Source of the DNA: Frigoribacterium sp. PhB160
GTDB lineage: Bacteria; Actinomycetota; Actinomycetes; Actinomycetales; Microbacteriaceae
Direction: 5' to 3'
Length of the DNA stretch: 64,000 nt
Assembly: GCF_003751785.1 (NCBI RefSeq)
Contig: NZ_RKIE01000001.1
Location: 186,001-250,000, forward strand
Part shown: positions 20,123 through 43,362 of the stretch, one piece after another
Numbering within the stretch: the stretch's first letter is position 1
How the letters are laid out: the number at the start of each line of letters is the position of its first letter
Notes under the pieces: generated by a model
The model's input: the letters and a program-made list of their open reading frames with translations, nothing else
The model's database searches: none
Told to the model about the DNA's origin: nothing
Program-made: the position numbers and the translations under genes

Positions 20123-20195
20123 GCGCCTGTAGCTCAACGGATAGAGCATCTGACTACGGATCAGAAGGTTGGGGGTTCGAGTCCCTCCAGGCGCA
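20123..20195 (+). tRNA. tRNA-Arg (anticodon ACG)
   Basis: A complete 73-nt cloverleaf is visible. The acceptor stem is GCGCCTG/CAGGCGC with discriminator A at 20195, the D arm lies around TAGCTCAACGGATAGAGC, the anticodon stem-loop is CTGACTACGGATCAG with anticodon ACG, and the T arm is GGGGTTCGAGTCCC-like. CCA is not encoded. A T-rich hairpin terminator follows. The 3' end abuts a probable integrated element and may serve as its attachment site. Confidence 0.97.
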
Positions 20196-20210
20196 CAGAA
20201 CACAAGGAAA

Positions 20211-20242
20211 GGCCCGGTCTGAGACCGGGCCCTTTGCCTTTT
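20211..20242 (+). terminator. tRNA-Arg terminator
   Basis: A 10-bp stem (GGCCCGGTCT / AGACCGGGCC, 20211-20231) is followed by CCTTTGCCTTTT, a classical intrinsic terminator 15 bp after the tRNA. Confidence 0.85.
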
Positions 20243-20244
20243 CT

Positions 20245-20274
20245 GGCCTAACTCGCCCTAAACTTGCCCTAAAC
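20245..20274 (+). repeat. Direct repeats GCCCTAAAC, candidate integrase arm sites
   Basis: GCCCTAAAC occurs at 20255-20263 and 20266-20274, with a degenerate copy GGCCTAAC at 20245-20252. The spacing is about one helical turn. They lie between the tRNA and the first element gene, where arm-type sites of a tyrosine integrase are expected. The role is inferred from position. Confidence 0.5.
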
Positions 20275-20282
20275 GACTCGTC

Positions 20283-22163
20283 GTGACAATGCCTCGTTTT
20301 GTGGCCCAGTCGCGGCGAGCAAAGGTGCTCCTTGGGGGACGCTTGAGACTAGAAGCGGTAGCTGTCAAGAACTTCCGTGGCTACACGGATGAGCAAGAAG
20401 TGCTCATCGGGGACCTTACGACCATCGTCGGCCGGAACGACGTGGGCAAGTCGACCATTCTCGAAGCCCTGGCGATCTTCTTCGGCAGTGAGGTCGTCAA
20501 AGCCGACGCGGGTGACGTGAACGTCGACTCTGACGCCCAGGAGTTTGAGGTGACCTGCACCTTCAGCGAGTTGCCGGAGAAGATCGTGCTCGATGCCCAA
20601 GCGGAGACGTCGCTCAAAGATGAGTTCTTACTGACGGAAACAGGACGCCTTCGTGTCCGCAAGCGATGGACGTGCTCCGGCGCTAAGCCCAAGGAGGAGG
20701 TCTTCGTCGTCTGCCATCACCCGGTAGACGACGACCTGAATGACCTACTTCTGCTCGGCAACGCAGCCTTGAAGACACGGCTGGGCAAACATCTGGAGCC
20801 AGCTGACTCTGCGGAAGTGAACAAAGCGAGCAACCCGGCGATGCGCAAAGCGCTCTGGGCCTCCGAAGCGGAACTGGTCCTCGAGGAAAGAGATGTTCCC
20901 GTAAGTAAAGAGGACTCCAAGCGCATCTGGGAGAGGCTTGCGCCGCTGCTCCCTCACTTTGCGCTCTTCCAGTCGGATCGGTCGAGCCGCGACTCGGACA
21001 GCGAAGTTCAAGATCCGATGAAGCTTGCCATCACGGCTGCCCTGGCAGAGAACGACGTCCAGCAGGCCTTGGCCGGCGTCGTCTCGATCGTGAGGGAAAG
21101 AGCGACCGAGCTGGCGACGCGGACGCACGCGGCCCTCGAAGAACTAGATCCGGAACTCGCCGATGGTCTGGTCGCCTCGTTCAAGAACGATCCCCGGTGG
21201 TCGTCTCTCTTCGGCGTGACGCTCGAGGGTAGGAATGGAATTCCGATCAACAAGCGAGGCAGCGGTGTGCGCCGACTCGTCCTCGTGAGCTTCTTCAAGG
21301 CTGAGGCGCAGCGTCAGATCGAGGAGGGGTCGAAGAGGAGCGTGATCTACGCCATCGAAGAGCCCGAGACGTCCCAGCACCCGCGCAATCAGAAGATCCT
21401 TCTCGAGTCATTCCAGGAGATGGCCCAAAGTGAGGGTTGTCAGGTACTACTGACCACCCACAGCCCAGGTTTGGCAGGCCACCTCCCGACGGAGAGCCTT
21501 CGCTTCGTGGCGAGGAACGAGGACGGCACTCCCCAAGTTCGACCGGCCAACGAGGACACGTGGGACCGAATCGCACAGGAGCTCGGCGTTCTGCCCGATG
21601 ACCGAGTTCGAGCCCTAGTTTGTGTGGAGGGGCCGAACGATGTCGCTGGGTTGAAGGCTCTAAGTGGTGCGCTCTGCGATGGCGGAGAGTCGCTCATCGA
21701 CCTACGGACTGACAACCGCTTCGCATTCGTGCTGCTCGGTGGTGGCACACTGCACCAGTGGGTGTCGGAGCGTTATCTCAAGGGCTTCGGGCGCCCTGAG
21801 TTCCATCTTTACGACAACGACGTGTCCAGTTACCAGAAGGCGGTCGACCAAGTAAATAGTCGATCAGATGGTTCGTCAGCGCGTCTGACCACGCGCCGGG
21901 AATTGGAGAACTACCTGCATCCGGATGCGATCACGTCTGCCCTTGGTGTGACCGTGAGTTTCGGGCCAACCGATGATGTGCCTGCGCTCGTCTCAGCGGC
22001 AATGAAGGCCGACCCCAACCTCAAACCAGTCAAGGCGCAAACTGCCAAGCGGTACCTCGCGGAACGGGTGTTTCCCACGATGACCCACAGTTTGCTCATC
22101 GAGGCGGGTGGAGCGGACGAGGTGCGCAATTGGATGCAAGCCCTGCAACAGATGGCGAAATGA
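20283..22163 (+). CDS. OLD-family ATP-dependent endonuclease (AAA + TOPRIM)
   Basis: This 626-residue protein has an ABC/SMC-type ATPase followed by a nuclease. The P-loop is GRNDVGKST (50-58), the signature-like region lies near RGSGVRRLV, Walker B is VIYAIEEPE and the H-loop segment is LLTTHSPGLAGHL. The C-terminal TOPRIM domain (from about 435) begins VCVEGPNDV and has LYDNDV. OLD nucleases act in phage defence. The Gabija partner GajB is absent, so this looks like a stand-alone class 1 OLD. It is element cargo between the tRNA and the integrase, a common place for defence genes. GTG at 20283, ATG at 20289 and TTG at 20343 are all possible starts; the last begins close to the conserved LRLEAVAVKNFRG. 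Confidence 0.87.
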   Translation: MTMPRFVAQSRRAKVLLGGRLRLEAVAVKNFRGYTDEQEVLIGDLTTIVGRNDVGKSTILEALAIFFGSEVVKADAGDVNVDSDAQEFEVTCTFSELPEKIVLDAQAETSLKDEFLLTETGRLRVRKRWTCSGAKPKEEVFVVCHHPVDDDLNDLLLLGNAALKTRLGKHLEPADSAEVNKASNPAMRKALWASEAELVLEERDVPVSKEDSKRIWERLAPLLPHFALFQSDRSSRDSDSEVQDPMKLAITAALAENDVQQALAGVVSIVRERATELATRTHAALEELDPELADGLVASFKNDPRWSSLFGVTLEGRNGIPINKRGSGVRRLVLVSFFKAEAQRQIEEGSKRSVIYAIEEPETSQHPRNQKILLESFQEMAQSEGCQVLLTTHSPGLAGHLPTESLRFVARNEDGTPQVRPANEDTWDRIAQELGVLPDDRVRALVCVEGPNDVAGLKALSGALCDGGESLIDLRTDNRFAFVLLGGGTLHQWVSERYLKGFGRPEFHLYDNDVSSYQKAVDQVNSRSDGSSARLTTRRELENYLHPDAITSALGVTVSFGPTDDVPALVSAAMKADPNLKPVKAQTAKRYLAERVFPTMTHSLLIEAGGADEVRNWMQALQQMAK

Positions 22164-22172
22164 GCCCGACGC

Positions 22173-23441
22173 TCACGAAGTGACGCACGGCCGTCGAATC
22201 ACCTCGGCGCCGGGAGCAAAGGCGTCCAGAGTGGCTCGGACGTCGGCCTTGAGCTCGGCTCGCTCGACGTACGAGGCCTGGGTGATGACCGTGTTGGAGT
22301 GACCCAGGATGCTGCTGGCAGCCGCAAGCCCCTCGTGCTTGTCCACCGCCGTCGCGACTGTCTTGCGGAGGTCGTGGAGGACGAAGTACTCGACCCCGGC
22401 ATCGTCGAGAGCCTTCCTCAGCGCTCGATAGATGTTGCTTCGCGAAAGAGGCTTGCCCGACTTGGTGCAGAAGACGAGGTCACTGTTCGGGTTTCGAGGC
22501 GCTTCTGCGAGCCGGGTACGCAGCCATTCCGGCAAGCGGACGGCGCGCATGCTCGACTTCGTCTTCGTCCGTGACTGTCGGTGCAGGCCCGTTCCGTTGT
22601 TCTGGTCGTTCCTCACCTCGACGGTCGTTCCGAGCACCCGCAGGGTTGGCTCTTCGCCCTCAAGGTCGAGGTCGATCCAGCGCAGAGCGAGCGCCTCGCC
22701 GATGCGGAGTCCTCCGCCGCCCAACATGGTGTCGATGATGAGGTCGACAGGCACGCTTGGGGTCGGGCCGCCGCGTCCGGGCTCGGGTCGCATGTAGCGA
22801 GCAACTGCGTTCCGAATGCTTTCAAGCTCAGTGGCACGGAGAGCAGTTGGGGTACTCGTCTTGGGCTTGATGGCGTCTGTGGCGCGGGCCGGGTTGAACG
22901 GAACGAACTGCTTCTTGTGCGCGTAGCCGAAGACGTTCATGAGCAGGCTGCGGAGGGAACGGGCCTGTGAGATCTGCCCACGTTCGACGAACTCCTGGAG
23001 GAAGTCGTCGAGCTGCACGATGCCGATGTCACGGATGTCCTCGTCACCGAAAGCTGGCTCCAGGTGAAGCCGCAGCAGGTCTCCGTAACGAACCCGGCTC
23101 GAGATGGCCAAGCCCTCACCCTGCGACGCCCTTAGCCAGCGGTGGGCCACATACGAGAAGGAGCGGCGGTCACGTGCGCGCTTGGCGTCCTCGGCCGCTC
23201 GACTCTCTTCCTCAGCTTGTTCGATGGACTGCTTCGCACGCGCCTCGCTGGCCGCTTTGCGTTCTTCGAACTTGTCTTTCAGTGCCCTCTTGGCATCGGA
23301 GGGCGAGGTGCCCTGTGCGGAGACGCGTGTCGTCACGGTCAGGGAGTCTCGTATCGTCGCGGTCGCTGTCCACTTGTTCTTAGCCAGCTCCTCCGTTCGG
23401 ATGTGACCGTAATGGCCGACTCCGAGCGCCTTCCTGCCCAT
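22173..23441 (-). CDS. int: Tyrosine recombinase / integrase
   Basis: This 422-residue site-specific recombinase should integrate and excise the element. The N-terminal arm-binding part (about 1-60) reads GRKALGVGHYGHIRTEEL. A long charged helix follows, then the core-binding SAM-like domain (about 90-180) and the catalytic domain. The catalytic domain shows the first Arg in GGGLRIGEALALRW, HDLRKT (His-x-x-Arg), LGHSN (second His) and Tyr in QASYVERAE. All active-site residues are present. The ATG at 23441 overlaps the excisionase stop by 4 bp (ATGA), so they are coupled; the frame continues upstream to 23567 inside the excisionase gene but without a plausible start. It points towards the tRNA, with the OLD gene in between. 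Confidence 0.93.
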   Translation of the reverse strand: MGRKALGVGHYGHIRTEELAKNKWTATATIRDSLTVTTRVSAQGTSPSDAKRALKDKFEERKAASEARAKQSIEQAEEESRAAEDAKRARDRRSFSYVAHRWLRASQGEGLAISSRVRYGDLLRLHLEPAFGDEDIRDIGIVQLDDFLQEFVERGQISQARSLRSLLMNVFGYAHKKQFVPFNPARATDAIKPKTSTPTALRATELESIRNAVARYMRPEPGRGGPTPSVPVDLIIDTMLGGGGLRIGEALALRWIDLDLEGEEPTLRVLGTTVEVRNDQNNGTGLHRQSRTKTKSSMRAVRLPEWLRTRLAEAPRNPNSDLVFCTKSGKPLSRSNIYRALRKALDDAGVEYFVLHDLRKTVATAVDKHEGLAAASSILGHSNTVITQASYVERAELKADVRATLDAFAPGAEVIRRPCVTS

Positions 23442-23662
23442 CAGCGCGTTCCCGAGTTGGTGGCGATGCAGGCGTCGCCATCGGAGCGCCGGTAAAGAAC
23501 ACGGCGTCCTACCGTGAAGCCGACTGGGCCGTATCCAGGCTTGCCCTCGAGTCCCTTGAGCCGCCAAGACCTGACCGTCGAGAGGGTCACGTGGAATTCA
23601 CGGGCGAGGTCGTCTGCGGTGAGGAGGGTTGTTGGCCGGGGGGCTTCGAGGATGGTGGACAT
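23441..23662 (-). CDS. AlpA/excisionase-like helix-turn-helix protein
   Basis: This 73-residue DNA-binding protein carries the MerR/AlpA-type wHTH: LLTADDLAREFHVTLSTVRS, then WRLKGLEGKPGYGP and a short wing VGRRVLYRRSDGDACI. Such proteins next to and overlapping an integrase act as excisionases (recombination directionality factors) and sometimes as regulators. The minus-strand ATG at 23662 follows AGGAACGAAG. It is the first gene of the xis-int pair. Confidence 0.87.
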   Translation of the reverse strand: MSTILEAPRPTTLLTADDLAREFHVTLSTVRSWRLKGLEGKPGYGPVGFTVGRRVLYRRSDGDACIATNSGTR

Positions 23663-23797
23663 GTCTTCGTTCCTGGTCGAGTTCTGCCGACGGGCGCCGG
23701 CTCGCCAGCACCATGCGCGGCAGGTCGCGACTTGTGTTCCATCGGCGCTGCCACGGCTCTCCGGAGCACCAGGCGTCTCGCCGCGCATGACGTGGGC

Positions 23798-24244
23798 ATG
23801 CAGAAGTCATTCCTTCATGCCAGTGGTCCTGGCTCCCGTGGTGAGGTTCTTACCGGTACGTCCGAGCAGATCGTCGAGGCGCTCATCGGTCTGCACTTCG
23901 GGGAAGGCGTCGACCGGCCGACCGCGATGCGAGCGATCGCCGTCGTGGCAGCGACCGAGTTCCAGGCGGAGTCGATGCAGCGGGCGTCGTGCGCTGGCAC
24001 GTTCTCGCTCGACGGGTGCACGATGGCAGAGATCGACCGACTCACCAGAGACCGGACCATCCCCGACCGTGACCCGGCCCCGTGGCTCCGCCGCGACGTG
24101 CCCCTCGTTCTCGTCCACCCCGGCACCGAAGGGTGGCAGCCTCCCCAAGGAAACGTCATGACTCTCCAGCATCAGACGGCATCTGCTCTCCTGTTGAGCC
24201 TTGCCCGAAGTGGCTACCTGCGGGTGGGCGCCATCTCGATCTGA
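23798..24244 (+). CDS. Hypothetical protein in the element, 148 aa
   Basis: I do not recognise this protein. From ATG 23798 it reads MQKSFLHASGPGSRGEVL, then a helical stretch SEQIVEALIGLHFGEGVDRP, a region FQAESMQRASCAGTFSLDGC, and a C-terminal hydrophobic helix TASALLLSLARSGYLRVGAI. The frame is open upstream to 23591, but that part is antisense to the excisionase and looks noncoding. No ribosome site is evident, which keeps confidence low. It is divergent from xis and convergent with the next gene. Confidence 0.45.
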   Translation: MQKSFLHASGPGSRGEVLTGTSEQIVEALIGLHFGEGVDRPTAMRAIAVVAATEFQAESMQRASCAGTFSLDGCTMAEIDRLTRDRTIPDRDPAPWLRRDVPLVLVHPGTEGWQPPQGNVMTLQHQTASALLLSLARSGYLRVGAISI

Positions 24245-24264
24245 GGTCTGGCGCCCACGGTGGG

Positions 24265-24537
24265 TCAGGCGCGCGTGCTGGCCTGGCGGCGTCGGGCCGC
24301 GCGCTCCGCTCGGGCAGCCTCCTCGCGGTCCTCCCTGCGGTCTGCCCGGATCCGGTTGATGCTCGTCGTTCCGAGCTCGAGGCCGTTGCTGCTGAGGGTG
24401 AGCTGCAGGTCAGCAGCCGTGAGGTCGTCGTCGTCGAGGAGCCGAGCGAGGTTCTGGCGCGACACTGGGTCCAGGGTCCTGACGAACTCCTGGAACTTGC
24501 CGGCGTAGCGGCGGCGGCGGATGGGCTGTTCGAACAT
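24265..24537 (-). CDS. Small charged protein, possible DNA-binding regulator, 90 aa
   Basis: This soluble, strongly charged protein begins MFEQPIRRRRYAGKFQEFVR. Its central segment LARLLDDDDLTAADLQLTL, followed by GTTSINRIRADRRED, has the rhythm of a helix-turn-helix in which the second helix could contact DNA, and the tail is Arg/Ala-rich. AGGAAGAG precedes the minus-strand ATG at 24537. Facing the long noncoding region upstream of the primase gene, it could be an element regulator. That is inference; no family is recognised. Confidence 0.6.
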   Translation of the reverse strand: MFEQPIRRRRYAGKFQEFVRTLDPVSRQNLARLLDDDDLTAADLQLTLSSNGLELGTTSINRIRADRREDREEAARAERAARRRQASTRA

Positions 24538-25027
24538 GCTGTTCTCTTCCTACGTGTTGCGCCATCGAGGGGCGCGGATGAGTCTCTTGTGAAGACGAGG
24601 GGCTTCTTCTCCCTCACCCCATCAGATGGGTCACGATCCGGCAGAAGTTAAGCCGCCACTCGAGATTCCTTGGCTTGCATGAGATCAGGCCAGCGGTCCA
24701 GGGCTGGGGCACGGCTTGGCCAGCACCTGGGGCAGCGTCAAATTCCCGTGAAGTCAGGCCTGTTATCGCTTCTCTTCTCTCCAGACCAGCAGATCTAGAA
24801 GCAAGAGCCGCGCTCCGCGCTTCGCGGGTTCCCGCCCGCCTGCCGCTGTTGTTCCGGTCACCTGCCCCAGGCGGTCGACAGTTGGCTACCCCCCCCGTAT
24901 GCCGTGTTGGGTTCGGCCCCCGAAAGAAAGATGAGTCCGGCGCTTAACTTTCCGTCGTTCGTGCCCCCTTTCCCTTGTGTGCCGCCGAGTGGCGGTGCCC
25001 CGGAGACGGGATCACAAGGGATCGACC
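24538..25027. other. 490-bp noncoding region upstream of the primase gene, possible origin
   Basis: No gene is convincing here. The stretch separates divergent genes, so it must hold both promoters. It contains a run of eight C (24889-24896), pyrimidine-rich tracts near 24960-24980 and a short hairpin GCCGCC-gagt-GGCGGT (24981-24996). A partially matching pair GTTAAGCCGCC (about 24646) and GGCGCTTAAC (about 24939) is also seen. Its place next to a primase-helicase makes it the best candidate for the element's replication origin, but no clear iteron array is visible. Confidence 0.4.
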
Positions 25028-28000
25028 ATGGGGGAAACCACCACCGAGAGCATGGCTCTCAACGAGCAGGACTGGGCAGCGCAGCACGCTGCGATCTGGG
25101 GCAGCCACGACTGGCCCACAGGCACGGTCATGAGCATCTGCAGCCAGGCCGTCGACAAGCTCACCGGCGTCAAGGGCGCCTTCCGAGGAATCGCGGCCGT
25201 CCCCATCAGTGACGCATCAGCTGCCTGGGACGTCCTGGCGACGGCCGCGAGCATGGGCGACAACGTCTGGGTGGGAGTCGGGGGACTCCGCCCCAGCTTC
25301 GGGCCGGGACGGGGCAGGAAGGCCGACGTTGTCGCCTTGCCTGCGTTGTTCGTTGACATCGACTTCAACTCGGGCAGCCACTCCGCCGGCGACAGGAACC
25401 CGACGAAGGAACAGGCGCAGCGATGGATCGATGCTGCTCCGCCGGCAACCGTCAAGGTCTTCACCGGAGGCGGCGTCCACCTTTACTTCGTCCTCGACGA
25501 CCTCCTCGACCCGCACACCCCCGACGGCGCCGCCCTGCTCGAGGCCCACAAGAAGTTCTGGATGCAGCTCGCAGGCGAGGACGTCCTCAACATCGACGCG
25601 GGAGTCCTGGCCGATGCCGCCCGCATCCTGCGCCCCGCCGGGACCTGGAACGCGAACCAGGGCCGGCGCACCCGGCTCGAGTTCGCGGACGGCCCCCGCT
25701 ACTCCACGACCGAGCTTCTGACCCGCTATCCAGAGGCGTCACCGCTGAAACCCCGACGGACGAAGACCCGGGGCACTGAGCCGCTGCCCGCGGCGGCCGG
25801 TTCGACTCCCGGGACGTCCGAGCGTGTCGGTGACCGCTTCGCGCTGACCGTGCCAGTGAGCGTCTTCGCCGAAGCGGTCTTCGGTGCCGACGAGCGCCCC
25901 CAGAACGGACTGACGTTCCCCGGCCCCGACGGGGATCTCGGGCCGCTGGACTCAGCCCGTATCTACCGGGCCAGGAACGGTGAGCCGGAGCGGCTGACCA
26001 TCTTCGACACCGCGATCCAGAGCATCTTCGGGCTCAATGGGCAGAATCACTCCTGGTCGTCCTTCGACCTCCTCGCCCACGCCTTCGGCGGCCCCACGGG
26101 GTACCGGAGGGCTGCTCGCCTGGTCGCAGACGGCGAACGCGGCGGGACCTGGCCGCTGCCGTTCTTCACCAGCCTGCCCGCCGTGCTCGCCCCTGACGTG
26201 CTCCGCGCGTTCGGCATCACGCCAGCGCCGCAGACAGTCTCGCTGGCGCCAGCGCCAGTGACGCCCGTGGCGACCGTCACCGGGCCGCAGGCCGTTGTTC
26301 TGGCACCCGTGGGGGCGTGGGCTGACGACGCTGCCGAAGCCGCCGACGAGGCTGCGCTGCTGGACCTCCTCGGCCCGACCTCCACGTCGACCCCGGCCGC
26401 GGCGGAGGCGCCTCTGACCATCGCTCGTGCCGTGGCCGACCGTGTACCCGCCCGGTTCGAACTCGAGGACGGACTACGCGCCTACGTCTGGGACGACACC
26501 GCCTCAGGGGAGACCCGGCACGGCATCTACAAGACCGTCCGCTTCCAACTGCCCGATCTGACGCACGGGGAACGCCTCGAGCGCATCAGCAGCTGGGTCG
26601 CGTTCAAGAGCCGCAAGACCGAGCAGCTCACCGTCGACACACAGGGCCGGAAGGTCATCGCCGCCGAGGCCAAGGTCACCGTCACCCTCGCGAGGTCCGA
26701 CGGACGGGTGCGCACCCAGGCGGGCTTCACCACTGCGGAAGCGCACTCCGCGAAGACAGTCGTCGACCGCCTCGACGTCGGCGTCAGCCTCCCCATCAGC
26801 ACCGTCGCCCGCGAGCAAGTCGGCAACGCCCTGCGTGAGCTCGGCACCGACGGTGGCACCGACGTCGTCGAGGCCTACGGCACTCTCGGCTGGCTGAAGC
26901 CCGACGGCGGGGGATGGACCTACCTCGCGCCTGCCGGATCGGTCAACGCCCAGGGAACCGTCCCGGGCTTCACCGTCGGCAGCCCACCCCGAAGCGAAGA
27001 GGACTCCCTCCTCGAAGCGCAGCTCGCCTACGGCTTCCCCGACCTCCCCTCAGACGCCACCGCCATCCGGACGGCGGCGTCGGCCATCCCGGCGTTCCTC
27101 GCCATCACGCCCACGAGCCACGCCGCGTTCGCGATGCTGGGCCTCGCCTTCGCCGCCCCGCTGGCACTCTCCGAGCGGACCAGCGTGTTCCTGGTCAGCC
27201 CGCCGGACGCGGGCAAGACGCAGCTGCTGCGCGCCTTCCAGGCGTTCCTTACGGGCAACGCCTACCTCTCCTCGTGGACGGGTTCTTCCCTGCCGAGCGC
27301 CACTGCGCTCGGTGCATCCATCACCGCCAAATGGGCGCGTCACGCTGTCAGCATTCACGACGATTTCAGGGTCCCCCAGGACCGCCGCAAGGCCGACGTC
27401 GTCAACCTCGCCGTCGCGAACGTCGTCCAGGCCAGCTACGGAGGTGCTGGTTCCGGGGCGAAGTCCACCGTCGACGGCGGACTTAAGACCGCCTCCGAAG
27501 CCGAGACTTGCGCCATCATCTCCGGTGAAGCCCTGCCCGGCGGAGGAGTCGGTGTACTCTCCCGCATCCTCGCCATCGACCTCCCACCCGGAGCCGTCGC
27601 GATGACGCCCCGAGACGCATCCCCCTTCGACACCTTCCGCGAGGCGCACCCGGCTGCTGCTCAAGCGCTCTACGGCACCTACATCCGCTTCCTCGCCAGC
27701 CGCCTCGACACCGCCGGCAGCCTCCGCCAGTTCCGAACCACGAACGAGCGTCTCCGAGCTGAGAACGCACCCAGGGCGGGCCGCTCCGCGAGCAACGCCT
27801 CCGTCGTCGGCGCCGGCTGGACGATGCTCCGCCTCTTCGCCGAGACCGCCGGCTTCGCCGACCTCATCCCCACCCAGGAGGACGTCGTCAAGGCGCTCGA
27901 CGACCTCGCCGGGGCCAACACAGCCCTTGTGCTGGACGCGAACCCCGCGCAGGCCATCGTCAACGCCGCCCGCGACACCATCGCCTCGAAGACCGGTCAC

Positions 28001-28342
28001 ATCGCCCTGCACGACGGCAGCATGCCCACCGGGGAGGAAGCGACTCGCCTCGGCTGGCAGTGGACGGCCCGTACGGCGACCGCTGGCGTCTACGAGCCCA
28101 CCCGTTTCGAGGTCGGCGTGCTCTCTGAGGACCGTCAGTACGTCGTCCTCCGCAACCAGGCCGTCACGGACCTCAAGCGGCGAAACCCCGCCCTGGAAGG
28201 CCTGCCGATGGGGCAGCTCAACACCGGCTTCCTCAGCCTCGTCAAGGACGGCACGACCCCGGGAAGCAAGGCCCCCAGGTCCATCGCGGGCGAGACCCGC
28301 CCCCGCGGCTACGTCCTGCCCGCCGCCGCCTTCGACCTCTGA
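25028..28342 (+). CDS. Primase-polymerase / AAA+ helicase replication protein
   Basis: This 1,104-residue protein probably primes and unwinds element DNA. The N-terminal PrimPol-type domain shows the metal motif FVDIDFN (about 107-113), TGGGVHLYF and the closing pattern DAARILRPAGTWN, typical of phage and plasmid primases. After an Ala/Pro/Val-rich linker (about 400-480) comes a DUF927-like helicase: P-loop VSPPDAGKTQ near residue 725, Walker B VSIHDDF and a later arginine-rich segment. ATG at 25028 is favoured (AAGGGAT upstream); the frame reaches back to 24977. Pri-rep fusions of this kind characterise satellites and integrative plasmids. A short Pro-rich frame at 28408-28665 with a good ribosome site follows, but looks non-protein-like. 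Confidence 0.85.
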   Translation: MGETTTESMALNEQDWAAQHAAIWGSHDWPTGTVMSICSQAVDKLTGVKGAFRGIAAVPISDASAAWDVLATAASMGDNVWVGVGGLRPSFGPGRGRKADVVALPALFVDIDFNSGSHSAGDRNPTKEQAQRWIDAAPPATVKVFTGGGVHLYFVLDDLLDPHTPDGAALLEAHKKFWMQLAGEDVLNIDAGVLADAARILRPAGTWNANQGRRTRLEFADGPRYSTTELLTRYPEASPLKPRRTKTRGTEPLPAAAGSTPGTSERVGDRFALTVPVSVFAEAVFGADERPQNGLTFPGPDGDLGPLDSARIYRARNGEPERLTIFDTAIQSIFGLNGQNHSWSSFDLLAHAFGGPTGYRRAARLVADGERGGTWPLPFFTSLPAVLAPDVLRAFGITPAPQTVSLAPAPVTPVATVTGPQAVVLAPVGAWADDAAEAADEAALLDLLGPTSTSTPAAAEAPLTIARAVADRVPARFELEDGLRAYVWDDTASGETRHGIYKTVRFQLPDLTHGERLERISSWVAFKSRKTEQLTVDTQGRKVIAAEAKVTVTLARSDGRVRTQAGFTTAEAHSAKTVVDRLDVGVSLPISTVAREQVGNALRELGTDGGTDVVEAYGTLGWLKPDGGGWTYLAPAGSVNAQGTVPGFTVGSPPRSEEDSLLEAQLAYGFPDLPSDATAIRTAASAIPAFLAITPTSHAAFAMLGLAFAAPLALSERTSVFLVSPPDAGKTQLLRAFQAFLTGNAYLSSWTGSSLPSATALGASITAKWARHAVSIHDDFRVPQDRRKADVVNLAVANVVQASYGGAGSGAKSTVDGGLKTASEAETCAIISGEALPGGGVGVLSRILAIDLPPGAVAMTPRDASPFDTFREAHPAAAQALYGTYIRFLASRLDTAGSLRQFRTTNERLRAENAPRAGRSASNASVVGAGWTMLRLFAETAGFADLIPTQEDVVKALDDLAGANTALVLDANPAQAIVNAARDTIASKTGHIALHDGSMPTGEEATRLGWQWTARTATAGVYEPTRFEVGVLSEDRQYVVLRNQAVTDLKRRNPALEGLPMGQLNTGFLSLVKDGTTPGSKAPRSIAGETRPRGYVLPAAAFDL

Positions 28343-28564
28343 CACCCAACCTGCCGCATGCCCAACCGGTAGGAGCACCCGCGTCCTACCGATGAAAGGA
28401 ACACCTCATGACCTGTCACCTCAACTGGGGCCAGCCCAGTCCGAGGCCGCCTCCCGGAACCACTTTTTCCGCCGCATGTCTTCCAGGCGCAGGCCACAAA
28501 GCGACCGCCACCCGGCGAATCGTCCGGCCGGTAGAGCGAACGCTCGCCCACCTCAGGACGCATC

Positions 28565-29254
28565 GTGGCCACCACTTTCCTCTCCACCGCCCGAACCCTC
28601 ACAAGCCAGCAAGAAATGGACTTGGCCAGGCGCATCGCCGCCGGCTCACGGCAGGCGGCCTTTGAGCTTGCCGGTTCAGTCGGCCCACTCATCCGCTCGC
28701 AGGCACGTCGAGTCGCGGCTTCGCACCCGACACTCGATGCCGACGACCTGGATATGCGCGGCTGGCTGGGAGCGGCGAAAGCAGTCGCCCACTTCGCGCC
28801 CCAGCAGGACGGCACGAGCGAAGAAGAGGTGCGCCACCCCCAGTTCCCTGCATTCGCCGCGCCCTACGTCCACGCCGAGCTGATGGACGAGGTGCGTCGC
28901 TACGCGACCCCCGTCGTCATCCCTGAGCACGTCTTCAAGGCCCGAAAGGGACGCGACGCCGCCTCGGCCGTCATCCTGCCGTGGCTCCGTGCCATCTCGC
29001 TCGACGGGGCCAAAAGCACCACGGAGCTTGCCGCTGAGGACCAGGCTCAAGTCATCAGCAGCATCGATGTGCGGCGGGCCATCGGGCAGCTCCCCGACAA
29101 GCAGCGCTACGTGATGCTCCGCATCCTGGAAGACGCCCCCGCAACGGACATCGCAGTGGAGTTGGGCGTCGGTACTGCACGCGTCTCCCAGCTCCGCAGT
29201 AGCGCCGCGGACTTCCTGCGGGAATCTCTCGCAACATATCGAGCCGCGGCCTAA
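28565..29254 (+). CDS. Sigma-70-like factor encoded in the element
   Basis: This 229-residue protein has sigma-factor architecture. Residues about 15-135 match region 2-like helices: LTSQQEMDLARRIAAGSR, LDADDLDMRGWLGAAKAVAHF and then AAPYVHAELMDEVRRY. Residues about 165-225 match region 4: RRAIGQLPDKQRYVMLRIL followed by the helix-turn-helix TDIAVELGVGTARVSQLRS. Spacing and order fit small sigma-70 or FliA-like factors. It may direct element gene expression, or a host programme. The GTG start at 28565 lacks a strong ribosome site. It follows the primase gene by 222 bp on the same strand. Confidence 0.75.
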   Translation: MATTFLSTARTLTSQQEMDLARRIAAGSRQAAFELAGSVGPLIRSQARRVAASHPTLDADDLDMRGWLGAAKAVAHFAPQQDGTSEEEVRHPQFPAFAAPYVHAELMDEVRRYATPVVIPEHVFKARKGRDAASAVILPWLRAISLDGAKSTTELAAEDQAQVISSIDVRRAIGQLPDKQRYVMLRILEDAPATDIAVELGVGTARVSQLRSSAADFLRESLATYRAAA

Positions 29255-29344
29255 ACATTGTCGCCTCCTTGCCCCATCTACCCATCAGACGCCCCAGTAA
29301 GGGGTGCTCGACACCCACCGGCAAAACGCCAGAAAGAGGTAACC

Positions 29345-29563
29345 ATGAACATCACTCGAGCGACCTGCATCTACTGCGACATCCTGCTCGCCACCGTCGA
29401 GGCCGACGACGAGCTCGAGGCCGAGGGGCACACCCCACAGCTCGACGGAGCAGCAGGAGACGAGGTCCGTGCAGCAGCCGTCACCATCCGAACCGCTCGG
29501 ACCTACCTCGCGACGGACCACGAAGGCGCCGACTGCCCCCACCGCGAACTCATCGGCGAATGA
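29345..29563 (+). CDS. Small Cys-containing hypothetical protein, 72 aa
   Basis: The protein begins MNITRATCIYCDILLATVEA and ends HEGADCPHRELIGE, so a CxxC pair near the N-terminus and Cys/His residues near the C-terminus could bind zinc. The middle is acidic and helical. AGAGG precedes ATG at 29345. Its stop overlaps the start of the next small gene (ATGA), which supports both being real. Function unknown. Confidence 0.65.
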   Translation: MNITRATCIYCDILLATVEADDELEAEGHTPQLDGAAGDEVRAAAVTIRTARTYLATDHEGADCPHRELIGE

Positions 29564-29742
29564 CGACGCACGCCGAACCGAACCAGTCCCCAAGTCACGC
29601 TTCCCGCTCTGGGACCTGGCGTCACAGGGAACTCGTCCTCGCCGCCGCCGCCGCCATCCTCGACCACCGCAGGAGCAGCGACTACGCCTGCCGGTGCAGC
29701 ACATGCGACGCCATCGTCGCTGCAGCAGACCAGCTGATCTAG
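29560..29742 (+). CDS. Small Cys-containing hypothetical protein, 60 aa
   Basis: The start ATG at 29560 overlaps the previous stop by 4 bp, so translation is coupled. The sequence is a polar N-terminus, a helix RHRELVLAAAAAILDHRR and a C-terminal cluster YACRCSTCDAIVAA with CxCxxC, again a possible metal site. Two consecutive tiny genes with Cys motifs suggest a small metal-binding pair, but no family is recognised. Confidence 0.6.
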   Translation: MTTHAEPNQSPSHASRSGTWRHRELVLAAAAAILDHRRSSDYACRCSTCDAIVAAADQLI

Positions 29743-29775
29743 ACCGCGCAACACCACAACCAACAGGAGAACCAC

Positions 29776-30018
29776 ATGCCCACAAAGACCAAGGCCGACA
29801 TCGAGGCTGAAGCTGCACTGTTCAAGTACGAGCGACAGATCTACCTCCGCCGGAGGCTCGGTGACTACACCTACCCCGGGCTCACCCCCGAGCGGATCGA
29901 GGAGCTCCTGGACGCGGCCCACATCGTCCGTCAGCTGAACGCGGAGGACGCCTTCAGAGCTGAGCGCCGAGCGGCTCGGCGGGACCTGGCCCGAGCGCGG
30001 GCCGCGATGGCCTCGTAG
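29776..30018 (+). CDS. Small charged helical protein, 80 aa
   Basis: An almost entirely helical, charged protein: KADIEAEAALFKYERQIYLR, then LTPERIEELLDAAHIVRQLN and a basic tail ERRAARRDLARARAAMAS. AGGAGA precedes ATG at 29776. It is the last gene of the same-strand run from the primase gene onwards and is followed by a hairpin. It could be a nucleic-acid-binding or structural protein; nothing more can be said. Confidence 0.65.
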   Translation: MPTKTKADIEAEAALFKYERQIYLRRRLGDYTYPGLTPERIEELLDAAHIVRQLNAEDAFRAERRAARRDLARARAAMAS

Positions 30019-30077
30019 CCGCTCGGCCAACTGTCGTGAGTCCACCTGGTCGGACACCCTGCGACCCCGGCTCGCAA

Positions 30078-30120
30078 CGACGCCGCCCCATGTCGATTGC
30101 CGAAATGATGGGCGGCGTCG
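30078..30120 (+). terminator. Hairpin terminator at the end of the element gene run
   Basis: CGACGCCGCCC (30078-30088) pairs with GGGCGGCGTCG (30110-30120) across a 21-base AT-richer loop, 60 bp after the last small gene. There is no U-tract. Confidence 0.6.
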
Positions 30121-30526
30121 TCGCGTCGTTGTACGACTGTGCTGGTGCTTAAGTCGCCCGCCGACGACGCCGTGACGAGAGAGCAGCTGTCACACACGTG
30201 GACCGGGCTTCCGGCCCGCGGGAACTCGGCTTACGCACCTTCTGCTTCGCAGCGCGAGGACGACGATCTCCTCGAGTGCTTGCCCAGGATCACGACGTGA
30301 ACCAGCCGGTTGCGCAACAGCCGAGAAGCACCTTTGTCGGACACTCGTCCATCGCGCGGGAGACCAACCGTCCACCGCCTCCGAGGTGACGCAAACGTCG
30401 GAACACACTCTTTCGGCACAGCGCGACTTCGGATGAGCTCGACAGACACGAGAATCGCCCACCGGCTCTGAGGCGCTGGCAGCCCCTTCACTCTGCCTTA
30501 TGCCCTCCTCAGCTCGCGCGCCTCCG
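30121..30526. other. Intergenic stretch without a credible gene
   Basis: About 400 bp follow the hairpin with only short, low-quality reading frames on the minus strand (30190-30491). No repeat of the tRNA 3' end, no integrase-like site and no promoter stands out. It is the likely zone of the element's right boundary. Confidence 0.5.
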
Positions 30527-31069
30527 TCAAGAGAGAACAGGCAAGCTGTAGCCGTCCACGGGACGCATCACGAAGCCAGCAGGTAGGCGCCCCCACGTGA
30601 GCCACGAGAAGAACACATCCACACACGTCGCGGGGTCCAACAGTACGTTCGGGTCGGCAACCGAGGCGTGCGGCCAGACGTCACCCGCACGCGTCACGAC
30701 AACCGGTTCGGCACACGGTGCGCCACCCGGGGCGACGATCCCCACGCCACTGTCGAAGCCCACCTCGACAAGTAGTGGAGTGCGGCTGCCGCCCGTGCAT
30801 TGAGCCCACCGATACGTGTAGCTCATCTTGATGGCGGGTTCCACGATGAGGTAGCCGGCACGCGCTGAACCGACCCGGTCGACGAGTCGACGCACGCCTG
30901 GCCATCGCGTAACGCCGTCTGAGGCCGGGAACCGCCATTCGACGTCAGTCTCCGCCGCCTCGCCGACAGCCACAAGCTCGAGGTCGCGGAGATTCGATTG
31001 AAGGGTGAGGTGCATCTCCATCCATGCGCGGCTAGTCATCTCCCGATTGGCTTGAAACCAAGTGCTCAT
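30527..31069 (-). CDS. Hypothetical protein, 180 aa
   Basis: I do not recognise this soluble protein. It begins MSTWFQANREMTSRAWMEMH, has a helical first third (LTLQSNLRDLELVAVGEAA), then a strand-rich part with AGYLIVEPAIKMSYTYRWAQ and LLVEVGFDSGVGIVAPGG, and ends with FFSWLTWGRLPAGFVMRPVDGY. No ribosome site is obvious before the minus-strand ATG. It could be the last cargo gene of the element or a chromosomal gene. Similar small single-copy proteins occur as immunity proteins, but nothing here proves that. Confidence 0.55.
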   Translation of the reverse strand: MSTWFQANREMTSRAWMEMHLTLQSNLRDLELVAVGEAAETDVEWRFPASDGVTRWPGVRRLVDRVGSARAGYLIVEPAIKMSYTYRWAQCTGGSRTPLLVEVGFDSGVGIVAPGGAPCAEPVVVTRAGDVWPHASVADPNVLLDPATCVDVFFSWLTWGRLPAGFVMRPVDGYSLPVLS

Positions 31070-31585: not shown

Positions 31586-31873
31586 ATGACCACCATCAGC
31601 CACACGTCCGCCTACTTCGCCCCCGTCGCGGCCCGCACCGCGGCTCAGCAGATCACGACCACCCCTCGCCGAGCCCGCCGCGACCGCTGGCGCATCATGC
31701 GGACTGCGCTGACCCCGGCACGCTGGGCCCTCATCGTCGTCTGGGTCCTCTCGCTCGTCGTCGGTCACGTGGTCTACGCGATCGGCCTGGCGGTGCTTGC
31801 TCTCGTTGCCGCCATGACGAATCAGCCCAGCCAGGTGCACTCGACTGCGTCCGGCGAGCGAACGGCTTCCTGA
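31586..31873 (+). CDS. Small membrane protein, 95 aa
   Basis: The N-terminal 45 residues are polar and basic (TTTPRRARRDRWRIMRTAL). A single long hydrophobic segment follows (about 46-77, RWALIVVWVLSLVVGHVVYA and onward), then a short polar tail. It is thus a likely single- or hairpin-spanning inner membrane protein of unknown role. ATG at 31586 has GAGGAGA upstream. It stands 3 bp before the receiver-only regulator gene, probably in one operon controlled through the palindrome at 31479. Confidence 0.7.
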   Translation: MTTISHTSAYFAPVAARTAAQQITTTPRRARRDRWRIMRTALTPARWALIVVWVLSLVVGHVVYAIGLAVLALVAAMTNQPSQVHSTASGERTAS

Positions 31874-31875
31874 CG

Positions 31876-32391
31876 ATGATCGCCGAACACGGTGATCTGA
31901 TGGCACGTGTGTCGGTTCCCAGCGGAGACCGACTTCGTGAGTCTGGGTGGGGCACGCGTGCTCTGCGCATCCTCGTCGTCGATGAAGAAGAACCGATCAC
32001 GCGCTTGCTGGAGATCGCGCTGCAGCTCGAGGGCTGGTCGGTCGAGTCGGCTGCGTCCGTAGAATCGGCCATCGCCATGATCGAGGAGCAGCGTCCTGAC
32101 GCTGTCGTGCTCGACATGATGCTGCCGGACGGGAGTGGCGTCGAGGTCGTCCTCGAGATGCGTCGACAGGGGCTTGAAACCCCCGTGGTGTTCCTCACTG
32201 GTCGGTCCGACCTCGACGATCGTCTCGATGCATTCGGGGCCGGTGCTGACGACTACATCACCAAACCATTTGCGCTCGAGGGCGTCGTCGACAAGCTTCG
32301 CGGCCTGTTCCGGAGTCAGGGCAGGGCAGGTGCCTCGACGATCGGCAAAGACTCGTCAACAGGCTGGCGGAAGAGGGAGGGGACTTCGTGA
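31876..32391 (+). CDS. Receiver-only response regulator
   Basis: This 171-residue protein contains a receiver domain and no effector domain. The acidic pair lies in ILVVDEEEP, the phospho-acceptor is D80 in VVLDMMLPDGSG, the Thr is in FLTGRS and the Lys in YITKPF, all as in OmpR-type regulators. After KLRGLFRSQG, where a winged helix would normally start, only about 20 residues remain. It may be a truncated OmpR regulator or a true single-domain regulator that acts by protein contact. ATG at 31876 follows the small membrane gene by 2 bp, and the stop overlaps a GTG of a tiny frame. Confidence 0.8.
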   Translation: MIAEHGDLMARVSVPSGDRLRESGWGTRALRILVVDEEEPITRLLEIALQLEGWSVESAASVESAIAMIEEQRPDAVVLDMMLPDGSGVEVVLEMRRQGLETPVVFLTGRSDLDDRLDAFGAGADDYITKPFALEGVVDKLRGLFRSQGRAGASTIGKDSSTGWRKREGTS

Positions 32392-32501
32392 CGCCCAGGT
32401 CGCTGTGGGGGCTTGCCTCGAGCTGCCGCGACGCGGTGGGAGCAGACCAATGGTCCGTGCGCATCGAGGGACCAGAGCTCGTTCTGGTCGCGGCGATCTG
32501 A
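32388..32501 (+). CDS. Micro-ORF, 37 aa, coupled to the receiver gene
   Basis: GTG at 32388 overlaps the regulator stop (GTGA) and has GGGAGGGG at a good distance upstream. The peptide reads VTPRSLWGLASSCRDAVGAD and ends GPELVLVAAI. It is too short for family assignment. The overlap and ribosome site argue for translation, but it could also be the remnant of a lost effector or kinase domain. Confidence 0.4.
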   Translation: MTPRSLWGLASSCRDAVGADQWSVRIEGPELVLVAAI

Positions 32502-32614
32502 TGGCCCCCGTCAGTCATTCTCCAGGTACCGACGGCAGGCCTGCACCGCACGTGGACGCCACCGGGGAAACGCCGACCGAGCCGATCGACATGATCCCGC
32601 TCCTTGCCGAGTGA
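32501..32614 (+). CDS. Micro-ORF, 37 aa, coupled to the preceding one
   Basis: ATG at 32501 shares a base with the previous stop (TGATG). The peptide starts MAPVSHSPGTDGRPAPH and ends EPIDMIPLLAE, hydrophilic and Pro-rich. Evidence is the overlap alone, so this is a tentative call. Confidence 0.3.
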   Translation: MAPVSHSPGTDGRPAPHVDATGETPTEPIDMIPLLAE

Positions 32615-32732
32615 CGGCCGCTCTCCGCTTCGAGCACGGGCGATGGCCCGACACCACGAGCCTCCACCGCGCCGGTGGGGGCTCTTGATGTTTCGTAGGG
32701 GCGGGACGGCTCCATCCGCCAGCGCCAGGACC

Positions 32733-32748
32733 TACTCCATCTGGAGTA
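32733..32748. promoter_or_regulatory. Palindromic operator TACTCC-N4-GGAGTA, site 2
   Basis: TACTCCATCTGGAGTA has perfect 7-bp arms around TC and lies 112 bp upstream of the MMPL start. It shares all twelve arm positions with the site at 31479-31494, suggesting one repressor for the membrane-protein/receiver operon and the exporter. Confidence 0.6.
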
Positions 32749-32860
32749 CACGGGTCGATCCCGACAGACGACGGCCGGGTCATCGGATCGAGAAACGATG
32801 GGGTCATCCCGGGGTGAGCAGACCCTGGCCCCCCACCTCTCTCGCTCTCAAGGAGTCCGC

Positions 32861-35083
32861 ATGTCCCTGTTCCTCTCCCGGATCGGGCGCTTCAGCGCCC
32901 GGCACCGGTTCATCGTCACCGGCATCTGGCTGGTCTTGTTCGCCGCTCTGATCGGGGCGTTCGCCATCGGTTCGACTCGCGACAAGCCGGAGGCAGCGGC
33001 ACAGACAGCATCATCGTCGACCGCGGCCTCGGAGACCCTCGACCGGCTCGCGACCGAGTTCCCCTCCATGGGTGGCGCGCAGGACCCTGCGGCGGACTCG
33101 CTGCAGCTGGTGTTCGAGGCACCCGCCGGCAGTTCCGTCACCGACCCTGCCACCTCGGCCGTCGTCACCGACACCCTCTCCGACGCCGCGAAGCTGCCCG
33201 GTGTCGCTGCGGTCACGAACCCCCTGGACCCCGCTGCGCCGTACATCTCCTCCGACGGTTCCGTCGCCGTCGCGACCCTGTCCTATGGGGGCCTCGGCGA
33301 CACCGCCGACAAGGAGGCCGACTACGCCGCCGCGCTCGACCTGCAGGAGTCGGCCACCGGCGACGTACGCGTCGAACTCGGCGGCAACCTCCTCGAGACC
33401 CAGGCTCCCGAAGCAGGCATCGGCGAGGCCGTCGGCGTGATCGCCGCCCTGCTCGTGCTCGTGCTCACGTTCGGGTCGCTCTTGGCAGCCGGCGCCAACC
33501 TGCTCGTCGCGGCCTTCGGTGTCGGTCTCGGCACGGTCGGCATCCTCACCTACGGCGCGTTCTTCCCCATGGGCGACAACACCCTCATCCTCGCTGCCAT
33601 GCTCGGCCTCGCCGTCGGCATCGACTACAGCCTGTTCATCCTCAGCCGGTTCCGCTCCGAACTGCGCGACGGACGCAACGTCGAGGACGCCGTCGCTCGC
33701 TCTGTCGGCACGGCTGGTACCGCGGTCGTCTTCGCCGGGCTCACCGTGATCGTCGCCCTGGTCGGGCTCGTCGTGGTGAACATGCGGGCGATCACCGAGA
33801 TGGGAGTCGCCGCAGCGGTCGCCGTCGCGATCTCCGTCCTGATCGCCCTGACCCTCCTGCCCGTGCTCATGCGCACCCTCGGACGCCGTGCCCTCCCTCG
33901 ACGCGAGCGCCACCTCCGTGAGACTGCACGACTCGCGGACGAGCCCGCCCGCCGTGGTTTCCTCGCCGGCTGGGCCCGCACGGTCGTGAAGCACCCGGTC
34001 CTGGCCGTGGTCGCCGGCGTCGTCGTCCTCGTCGTCGTCGCCCTGCCCACGCTGAGCATGAAGACGGCGTACAACGTGCCCGGCGGCACCGATCCAGAGT
34101 CCACCGAACGTGCCGCGTACAACCTGGTCCTCGACGAGTTCGGTGGCGTCCAGAGCCCCCTGATCGTCCTCGCCGAGGGCACGGACATCGCCCAGGACGC
34201 CGCAGCCACGGCCGCAGAACTGAGCAGCCTCGACGGGGTCCAGTCAGTCACCCCTGGTCAGATCGCCGACAGCGGCGACGCCGTGATGTACACGGTCATC
34301 CCGACGGGCAGCCCGATCGACGACGACACCATCGACCTCGTCTCGGCGATCCGCGACGACACCTCCGTGAGCGGCGTCACCCTCGAGGTGACCGGTGAGG
34401 CAGCCATCTACATCGACGAGTCGGCCGCCCTCAACCAGGCCTTGATCAAGTACGTCATCGTGATCGCGGTGCTCTCGCTCGTCCTGCTGACCGTCATGTT
34501 CCGCTCGTTGCTGATCCCGATCGTCGCCACCCTGGGCTACCTCCTGTCGCTCCTGGCGTCCTTCGGCGGCAGCGTCGCGGTCTTCCAGTGGGGCTGGCTC
34601 GATGCCATCATCCCCGCCCCCCAGGGCGACCCGATGCTCAGCCTGCTGCCCATCCTGCTGGTCGGCGTGCTGTTCGGCCTCGCGATGGACTATCAGGTGT
34701 TCCTCGTGTCCCGCATCCAGGAGATGCACTCGAAGGGCATGACCCCGAAGGAGGCGGTGGTAGCCGGGTTCAGCAAGTCGGCCCCCGTTCTCGTGGCGGC
34801 TGGCACGATCATGACCGTGGTCTTCGCCGGGTTCGCGTCGAGCACCATGGCGATCGCCGCCTCCATCGCGTTCGGCCTCGTCGTCGGAGTGCTGGCCGAC
34901 GTGTTCATCGTCCGACTCGTGCTCATGCCGGCAGTGCTCTCTCTGCTCGGAAAGGCCGCGTGGTGGCTCCCGGCCTGGTTGGACCGCATCATCCCGCGTC
35001 TCGACATCGAGGGCCACGCCCTCGACGCTCACGACGCGGAGAGCCCGGCCCGCACGCCGGATCGCGAGCTCGTGGACGCCTGA
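32861..35083 (+). CDS. MMPL-family transporter (RND superfamily)
   Basis: This 740-residue membrane protein has the MMPL layout: helix 1 at about 15-40, an extracytoplasmic loop to about 190, five helices (about 195-370), a central cytoplasmic stretch, then the repeat with helix 7, a second loop and five more helices. Characteristic segments are GLAVGIDYSLFILSRFRSEL and, in the second half, GLAMDYQVFLVSRIQEM, where the Asp-Tyr pairs are the proton-relay positions. MMPL proteins export lipids, siderophores or drugs. ATG at 32861 has AAGGAGT. A palindromic operator lies upstream, and a histidine kinase-regulator pair follows 56 bp downstream. Confidence 0.93.
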   Translation: MSLFLSRIGRFSARHRFIVTGIWLVLFAALIGAFAIGSTRDKPEAAAQTASSSTAASETLDRLATEFPSMGGAQDPAADSLQLVFEAPAGSSVTDPATSAVVTDTLSDAAKLPGVAAVTNPLDPAAPYISSDGSVAVATLSYGGLGDTADKEADYAAALDLQESATGDVRVELGGNLLETQAPEAGIGEAVGVIAALLVLVLTFGSLLAAGANLLVAAFGVGLGTVGILTYGAFFPMGDNTLILAAMLGLAVGIDYSLFILSRFRSELRDGRNVEDAVARSVGTAGTAVVFAGLTVIVALVGLVVVNMRAITEMGVAAAVAVAISVLIALTLLPVLMRTLGRRALPRRERHLRETARLADEPARRGFLAGWARTVVKHPVLAVVAGVVVLVVVALPTLSMKTAYNVPGGTDPESTERAAYNLVLDEFGGVQSPLIVLAEGTDIAQDAAATAAELSSLDGVQSVTPGQIADSGDAVMYTVIPTGSPIDDDTIDLVSAIRDDTSVSGVTLEVTGEAAIYIDESAALNQALIKYVIVIAVLSLVLLTVMFRSLLIPIVATLGYLLSLLASFGGSVAVFQWGWLDAIIPAPQGDPMLSLLPILLVGVLFGLAMDYQVFLVSRIQEMHSKGMTPKEAVVAGFSKSAPVLVAAGTIMTVVFAGFASSTMAIAASIAFGLVVGVLADVFIVRLVLMPAVLSLLGKAAWWLPAWLDRIIPRLDIEGHALDAHDAESPARTPDRELVDA

Positions 35084-35139
35084 CCCCGCTGGCCCAGGGC
35101 ACGCCGGACCTCTCCACCGAGGCCCGGCGTGCCTCGCGC

Positions 35140-37055: not shown

Positions 37056-37140
37056 GTCGTGGTACGACGAGTCTGTGTCCGAGGATGCCAGCTCTTCGCC
37101 GAGGGCTGCGTCTCTGGTGCTGGCCTGGGGTCCGGAGACG

Positions 37141-38103: not shown

Positions 38104-38173
38104 GCCTGCTCCTCCGTCTCGGCTGTGACGATGTTACCGAGAGTTGACAGGCCCGGAGAGCCGTGGTTGAGTC

Positions 38174-38189: not shown

Positions 38190-38222
38190 TCGCGATGACG
38201 ACGATGTTCTTGGAGGCTCCCC

Positions 38223-40673: not shown

Positions 40674-40705
40674 CCGACATCCCCGTCACCGCCGAAGGGA
40701 CCACC

Positions 40706-43333: not shown

Positions 43334-43362
43334 CACCCGCACTCGAACAATGGAGTTCCGTC

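Follow-up and report, generated by a model that had tools for sequence, protein, structure and literature searches.

We analysed a 64,000-nucleotide stretch of the genome of Frigoribacterium sp. PhB160 (the window; positions 186001-250000 of contig NZ_RKIE01000001.1, here C1) and find, beside a tRNA-Arg gene, a block of about 20.2-31.3 kb in which a defence slot is followed by genes for integration, replication and regulation. This block is likely the left end of one integrative element of about 63.4 kb that moves in the manner proposed below. The best reading of this element is a transfer-deficient, cargo-carrying one, closest to mobilizable elements derived from actinomycete integrative and conjugative elements (AICEs) and to tycheposons. 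The original prediction had described an integrative element linked to a tRNA and equipped with a sigma-like factor of its own, and the integrase, the repeat at the ends and the sigma factor support it in this; it had also closed the element at position 30120, and this part falls, because the unit runs on to a right attachment site outside the window. The 10-kb stretch first noticed is only the control end of a 63-kb island.

An island bounded by copies of the tRNA-Arg 3' end

In the 94 kb searched downstream of the tRNA, its 3' end has a single long direct copy, exact over 42 bp and 63,414 bp away, and because this is the sole long copy we take the unit to extend for about 63.4 kb between the two attachment sites, attL and attR (Table 1; extended coordinates count on beyond 64000, the last window position, along this contig). 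A direct repeat had been predicted at 30-33 kb, where no direct-strand copy of at least 13 bp exists, and no copy with up to three mismatches over 23 bp occurs elsewhere in the window. The next direct match in the genome, at 81% on contig C2, is probably another tRNA gene. Counted per kb, the GC content falls from 0.73-0.79 over 14-20 kb to 0.60 at 20-21 kb. Two 13-bp inverted matches to the tRNA 3' end lie just past attR, and the tRNA T-arm recurs beside it in short inverted copies.

Unoccupied tRNA-Arg sites in relatives, as had been predicted, are present. The joined left and right flanks align across the junction in two genomes, G299 (query 11-656, 75.6%) and G307 (query 445-630, 89.5%), so that the tRNAs there are without this element; in G307 one more att copy follows after 38 kb. 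The tRNA of G035 and that of strain PhB116 (G218) are followed within about 0.6 kb by a flank gene that lies further out (extended 93017). A further 9.3 kb (extended 83612-93000) separates attR from this conserved flank in PhB160 and is perhaps the remnant of an older insertion. Within it, extended 85014-90474 has 84-91% identity to part of an island in G167.

The tRNA region is matched in all 16 Frigoribacterium genomes, and in five of them (PhB160, G167 with two copies, G303, PhB24 and G307) the tRNA 3' end recurs 35-77 kb downstream. The contigs of G299 and G300 are too short to show such a copy, and for 11 of the 15 relatives the comparison of this hot spot covered 11-20 kb. Rather than being present at this site in all relatives, the integrase is found at the tRNA-Arg in 3 of the 16 genomes (PhB160, G303 and PhB24), and the predicted replication protein (PRI) together with the sigma factor (SIG) in two. 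In G167 (contig C9, about 78765-145646) two tandem islands, of 35 and 31 kb by att spacing, stand at the tRNA-Arg, and many of their genes look like genes of sugar transport and glycan use.

The clearest view of the island as a unit comes from PhB24, in which the same tRNA holds extended 22210-83419, with identities of 92.3% over 22210-28704, 98.97% over 30540-48040 and 98.73% over 48064-83419; the cargo is 98.7-99.0% identical over 53 kb. Core and cargo are joined at the same place, 30.5 kb, in the two species. The left chromosomal flank of PhB24, compared with window positions 1-19531, reaches 76-89% in its aligned segments, and its right flank has no match of at least 200 bp. The identity of the island, about 99% against 76-89% for the aligned left flank, therefore indicates a recent transfer of the whole island between species. 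PhB24 differs in carrying Gabija in place of the OLD-type gene and in having two additional stretches, one of about 5.5 kb between 48040 and 48064 and one of about 7.5 kb just inside attR. We consider it improbable that the island is immobile and was moved between species by homologous recombination, with the integrase, PRI and SIG as relics, since the step in identity between flank and island fits site-specific insertion and most core genes appear to be under purifying selection; such an origin would suit the mosaic nature of tRNA islands, whose modules differ in age, and the failure to find transfer genes among the proteins scanned.

Carbohydrate enzymes or sugar-type transporters make up 11 of the 20 cargo proteins scanned with Pfam, and the others include an MMPL transporter, a response regulator, a flavin monooxygenase, a carbonic anhydrase and proteins without assigned function. 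The cargo includes a second GH78 gene beyond the window, and from the rhamnosidases we would guess that its sugars are of plant origin. The genes at 49511-50539 and 50613-51557 look like second copies of a class II aldolase and a GlpX-type fructose-bisphosphatase (named by eye). The island aldolase is 95% identical to a copy at C2:490712, and the two genes share 95-96% DNA identity with a pair on a PhB116 contig, outside the PhB116 island.

Core genes and the sigma cassette

The predicted order of tRNA-Arg, OLD nuclease, integrase, overlapping excisionase and sigma factor is borne out by ARAGORN, Pfam, PHROGs, PADLOC and TIGR02937, the nuclease as an OLD-type protein and the excisionase as a candidate. 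SIG is, on its profile matches, a real sigma-70 factor: it scores 44.7 bits against TIGR02937 (curated cut-off 42.9), and its profile matches sigma factors in the PDB from 6.7e-11, with the Pfam region models under their cut-offs. Its AlphaFold model has a mean confidence (pLDDT) of 57.1, and Foldseek leads from it to sigma and RNA polymerase entries, seven at E<=0.001, with weak TM-scores of 0.3-0.4. At E<=1e-8, SIG is found in 2 of 299 genomes of the family, PhB160 included, and PRI adjoins it in both; SIG of PhB24 also stands with PRI. SIG is element-specific.

The assignment of PRI as a primase is weak. The predicted primase-polymerase/AAA+ protein is supported by phrog_2478 ('DNA polymerase/primase'), which covers residues 48-210, by phrog_25314 and by motifs seen by eye; Pfam gives zero matches at E 0.1, and the PRI profile has no match in the PDB. 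The residues D110, D112, H151, D190 and R199, G729-K730 and D778-D779 are invariant in four homologues and make up DxD, GxH, D..R and Walker-like patterns, which we take to be archaeo-eukaryotic primase and P-loop motifs. The AlphaFold model of PRI (pLDDT 37.4) is unusable. Upstream of PRI, at 24538-25027, a search for iterons gave one two-copy 12-mer and weak inverted repeats only.

The SIG cassette is the most unusual part of the element. By blastn, identity to PhB24 and PhB116 is high up to 28704 and high again from 30540. In 250-bp bins against PhB24 it is 92-100% at 25000-28249, falls to 86% and 74%, stays at 22-69% over 28750-30499 and returns to 84-100% up to 32749. Between PhB160 and PhB24, SIG is 54% identical with a synonymous divergence (dS) of 1.14, and the adjoining PRI 97.5% with a dS of 0.077; SIG of PhB24 and PhB116 are 96.5% identical. 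SIG and its neighbours thus appear as two very different alleles, for which replacement of the cassette by recombination would be a better account than fast mutation. The small Cys proteins of the original prediction exist as open reading frames (ORFs) but have no family match: C72 is without one in the Pfam, PHROGs, PADLOC and curated-model scans, and the 60-aa ORF has no match in the loci searched, PhB24 and PhB116 included.

Ratios of nonsynonymous to synonymous substitution (dN/dS) are 0.07-0.37 for INT, XIS, the 148- and 90-aa ORFs, PRI, SIG and p180 (INT 0.12-0.16 in three genomes; XIS 0.10), which suggests purifying selection on most core genes. XIS matches HTH_17 at 2.5e-4, under the Pfam cut-off and with an HTH_17/MerR-like character, and the excisionase family phrog_66 at 7.7e-4.

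The same core occurs at another site in PhB116. The island there, which sits at the 3' end of a gene that by eye resembles ychF and has a 25-bp repeat, holds PRI (94%), SIG, C72 and p180; the integrase is absent from this island, and the contig has no PF00589 match. The 3' end of the ychF-like gene looks like a second insertion hot spot. At this locus (L035 4174-7173; about 661437-687938 on PhB116 contig C2) the end of the gene recurs in several degenerate copies, and an outer repeat of 25 bp is present. A partial paralogue of p180 lies at 31270-31611(-) in the window (E 6.5e-5), and PhB116 also has a second p180 copy.

Between the tRNA and the integrase, all three elements with this integrase carry defence-type genes, each a different one, in keeping with the predicted defence cargo near att: the OLD-type gene in PhB160, GajA and GajB in PhB24 (1.1e-177 and 9.6e-112), and in G303 an HEC-07-like gene of a candidate defence family (1.9e-21). 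The OLD-type protein matches AAA_15 (E 7.7e-74) and, in PADLOC, AriA (1.3e-58), Old (1.3e-25) and GajA (1.2e-21). The OLD endonuclease structure 6p74 matches it at 1.9e-13 over residues 319-422 only. Its ATPase is clear, and its TOPRIM motifs were seen by eye, without an OLD-like_TOPRIM match in the Pfam scan.

Table 1. Features of the PhB160 island in window coordinates, and the sigma genes of a distant relative
Feature	Position	Strand	Remarks
tRNA-Arg(ACG), integration target	20123..20196	+	ARAGORN; Rfam tRNA 71.4 bits
attL, 3' end of tRNA-Arg(ACG)	20156-20197		42-bp exact repeat with attR
OLD-type nuclease	20283..22163	+	AAA_15 ATPase and C-terminal TOPRIM-like part; defence slot between attL and int
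Tyrosine integrase INT	22173..23441	-	PF00589 2.7e-18; phrog_1 8.3e-44
XIS, candidate excisionase/AlpA-like helix-turn-helix protein	23441..23665	-	Overlaps int start
Conserved 148-aa ORF	23798..24244	+	G303 88.5% identity, dN/dS 0.12; present in PhB24 and PhB116
90-aa protein	24265..24537	-	97% identity in PhB24 and PhB116, dN/dS 0.07-0.08
PRI, putative primase-polymerase/P-loop ATPase-like replication protein	25028..28342	+	phrog_2478 1.7e-9; dN/dS 0.16-0.17
SIG, sigma-70 family factor	28565..29254	+	Regions 2 and 4; TIGR02937, phrog_351 9.3e-16
Replaceable cassette, 1.8 kb	28704..30540		SIG from about codon 47, C72, small ORFs; blastn and binned identity
C72, 72-aa CxxC...H...C protein	29345..29563	+	Possible zinc protein by eye; 67-68% identity in PhB116 and PhB24
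60-aa Cys ORF	29560..29742	+	This allele only
80-aa ORF	29776..30018	+	Other allele: different 71-aa ORF here, 28-32% identity
p180, 180-aa conserved protein	30527..31069	-	dN/dS 0.15 with PhB24
Cargo	31586..64000, on to attR		MMPL transporter, response regulator, glycoside hydrolases GH2, GH78 and GH1, major facilitator (MFS) transporter, FGGY kinase, class II aldolase, dehydrogenase
attR	extended 83570-83611 (C1:269570-269611)		Outside the window, 19.6 kb past its end
Sigma genes of RYN_99	L021 12461-13282 and 17396-18379		Flank PRI homologue; one with regions 1.2 to 4

Distribution, transfer genes and the proposed switch

PRI homologues are rare, occurring in 6 of 299 family genomes (PhB160 included), in 2 of 396 genomes of an order-wide search (PhB160 and G443) and at three loci in a collection of genome contigs. 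Plasmids gave two partial PRI matches (30-32%) and none to SIG. A search of 50,697 phage records gave nothing for PRI or SIG. The integrase has matches below 60% in 354 phage records, and PRI resembles, at its primase end, one phage protein family and nine loci in viral contigs (28-34%, in the N-terminal part only). These likenesses, together with the set of int, xis and primase genes and a defence gene near att, would suit the predicted phage satellite of about 10 kb, packaged by a helper and inserted beside an older, unrelated metabolic island. We regard this as quite unlikely, given the missing att copy at 30-33 kb, the absence of PRI and SIG from the phage records, the join of core and cargo at one 30.5-kb point in two species and the lack of packaging or capsid families among the 10 core proteins (PHROGs), even though the PRI-SIG core stands without this cargo at ychF in PhB116 and core and cargo differ in their identity to PhB24. 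The unit of about 63 kb, its carbohydrate cargo and the FtsK-like genes described below also speak against a satellite of that size.

As had been predicted, structural and transfer genes were not found. The scans, which took in the 10 core proteins, 20 of the 39 cargo genes (Pfam) and 10 cargo proteins (PHROGs), yielded no conjugation or phage structural gene, and PHROGs no packaging or structural match among its 10 core and 10 cargo proteins. The island has no FtsK-domain gene, all listed PF01580 matches of PhB160 being outside C1:206123-269616. In whole-genome searches, VirB4-type AAA_10 was found in 0 of 4 genomes, relaxase PF03432 in 0 of 6, and the TrwC relaxase in 2 of 6, PhB160 not among them. 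One TrwC-type match in PhB24 is on another contig (C9:9274-10467), possibly a conjugative plasmid or helper. Since no transfer machinery was found, movement would depend on a helper, most probably an FtsK/Tra-type element or a phage.

The distant PRI homologues bear on the nature of this help. An FtsK-like gene is near two of the four, an FtsK-domain gene about 4 kb away in G226 and a marginal match (26.5 bits; 23.9 against a cut-off of 24 in a second scan) about 7 kb away in the metagenome-assembled genome RYN_99. In RYN_99, two different sigma genes flank a distant PRI (33-38% by segment), and about 25 kb from it are a tRNA-Ala, an integrase and, by eye, an ORF of AlpA-like type. The FtsK-like neighbours would agree with a reduced AICE that has lost an FtsK-type Tra and can be mobilized only when a related element shares its cell, a reading that overlaps our own and has a real chance of being right, somewhat short of even. 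AICEs use Prim-Pol or another Rep with an integrase, and members without tra or rep are remnants or mobilizable, by the account in part of PMC3218068. The island itself has no FtsK-domain gene, however, PRI matches none of the Pfam models used to find AICE Rep proteins, and the FtsK match of RYN_99 is marginal.

For the preferred reading, a transfer-deficient integrative element with cargo, we propose the following mechanism. INT and XIS would excise and insert the island at the tRNA 3' end, as the att repeats and unoccupied junctions suggest, and PRI would replicate the excised circle. SIG may redirect the host RNA polymerase to promoters of the element and is probably the on-switch for PRI and excision, by analogy with SigN and the regulon of plasmid pBS32. 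The island would thereby spread genes of carbohydrate use among Frigoribacterium, and the defence, integrase and sigma cassettes would be exchanged by recombination at the shared tRNA hot spot. More tentatively, these islands may form a distinct Microbacteriaceae family of helper-dependent cargo islands, in which a primase is coupled to a swappable sigma cassette and the element times its own excision and replication. Such a family would include the same core, inserted at tRNA-Arg as well as at ychF, and a distant two-sigma version in another genus.

Several observations weigh against this picture. The left core is 92% and the cargo 99% identical to PhB24, so that parts of the core have separate histories, and some residual chance remains that the core is nested in an older island. 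The primase assignment is weakened by the lack of a Pfam match and an AlphaFold pLDDT of 37, and the 19 cargo genes beyond the 20 of 39 scanned with Pfam were read by eye. C72 has a dN/dS of 0.68-0.73 across alleles and the small ORF one of 0.8-1.1, and these two therefore give no clear sign of purifying selection. The sigma genes of RYN_99 share only general sigma likeness with SIG (28% identity), and its integrase and tRNA, about 25 kb from PRI and with no attR found, do not establish a single element. We saw no sigma gene beside PRI in G226, G212 or G208, and in the latter two no FtsK match on the contig that carries PRI. A shared promoter dyad, sought at ten gene starts, was rejected as borderline and not promoter-like: two dyads occurred in 3 of the 10 regions, and of 40 shuffles within 20-bp blocks nine reached three regions and one had two such dyads. 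No SOS box lies in the core (20-31 kb). With a promoter search that was borderline at best and no SOS box in the core, the switch model draws its support from gene order, element-specificity and analogy. In the window as a whole there are eight SOS-box-like sites with up to two mismatches, most of them with two, against 3.6 expected, and 0 of 100 shuffles reached eight.

Comparison with known systems

No paper on this element was among those listed in a literature search. P4-like satellites and phage-inducible chromosomal islands (PICIs) carry int, an AlpA-like regulator and a primase, and phage satellites are compact, with att sites close around the int-alpA-primase genes. The PhB160 island differs from them in measuring 63 kb from att to att, in its metabolic cargo, in having no packaging or capsid gene among the proteins scanned and in a PRI and SIG unmatched in the phage collection. 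The carriage of defence genes by phage satellites, and tycheposons as a proposed satellite family, appear in the portion of PMC11389934 used here.

AICEs combine a tyrosine integrase, an excisionase and a primase-type replication protein, as outlined in PMC3218068. The PhB160 island resembles them in its integrase, att repeat and unoccupied junctions, which point to site-specific integration. Unlike them, it has no FtsK/Tra that we could find, no match to the AICE Rep models in Pfam (RepSA, RepAM and Prim-Pol PF09250) and a large metabolic cargo, and it has a sigma factor, a term that does not occur in the main text of PMC3218068. Tycheposons, known from Prochlorococcus and also reported in Methylophilaceae, are described in part of PMC10872708 as cargo islands at tRNAs with a tyrosine recombinase and metabolic genes. 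By that description the PhB160 island is similar in being a large tRNA-bounded island with a tyrosine recombinase and metabolic cargo; it belongs to a different phylum and has a sigma factor beside its replication gene and a defence slot. Within the genus, the account of F. adelgis in PMC12823222 gives, in the part drawn on here, 10 predicted islands; two of them have tRNAs, and one, derived from a prophage, has a tyrosine integrase.

The PhB160 element exemplifies a metabolic island of 63 kb in which no transfer gene was found and which recently crossed species; sites without it, a relative of almost the same sequence and a compact core accompany it. With its sigma factor tied to the replication gene, the element provides a switch for island mobility that can be tested, and the SIG allele swap is a natural experiment on what SIG recognises. 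The nearest parallel for such a switch is pBS32 of Bacillus subtilis, where SigN (ZpdN) activates itself and the plasmid regulon and raises copy number, and where sigN has a LexA-repressed promoter, as set out in part of PMC6751061. In both cases a replicon has its own sigma factor, SIG being likened to SigN by role; pBS32 differs in being a plasmid of another phylum, and the PhB160 core is without an SOS box. Among cargo-carrying, transfer-deficient integrative elements, the PhB160 island is a new variant.

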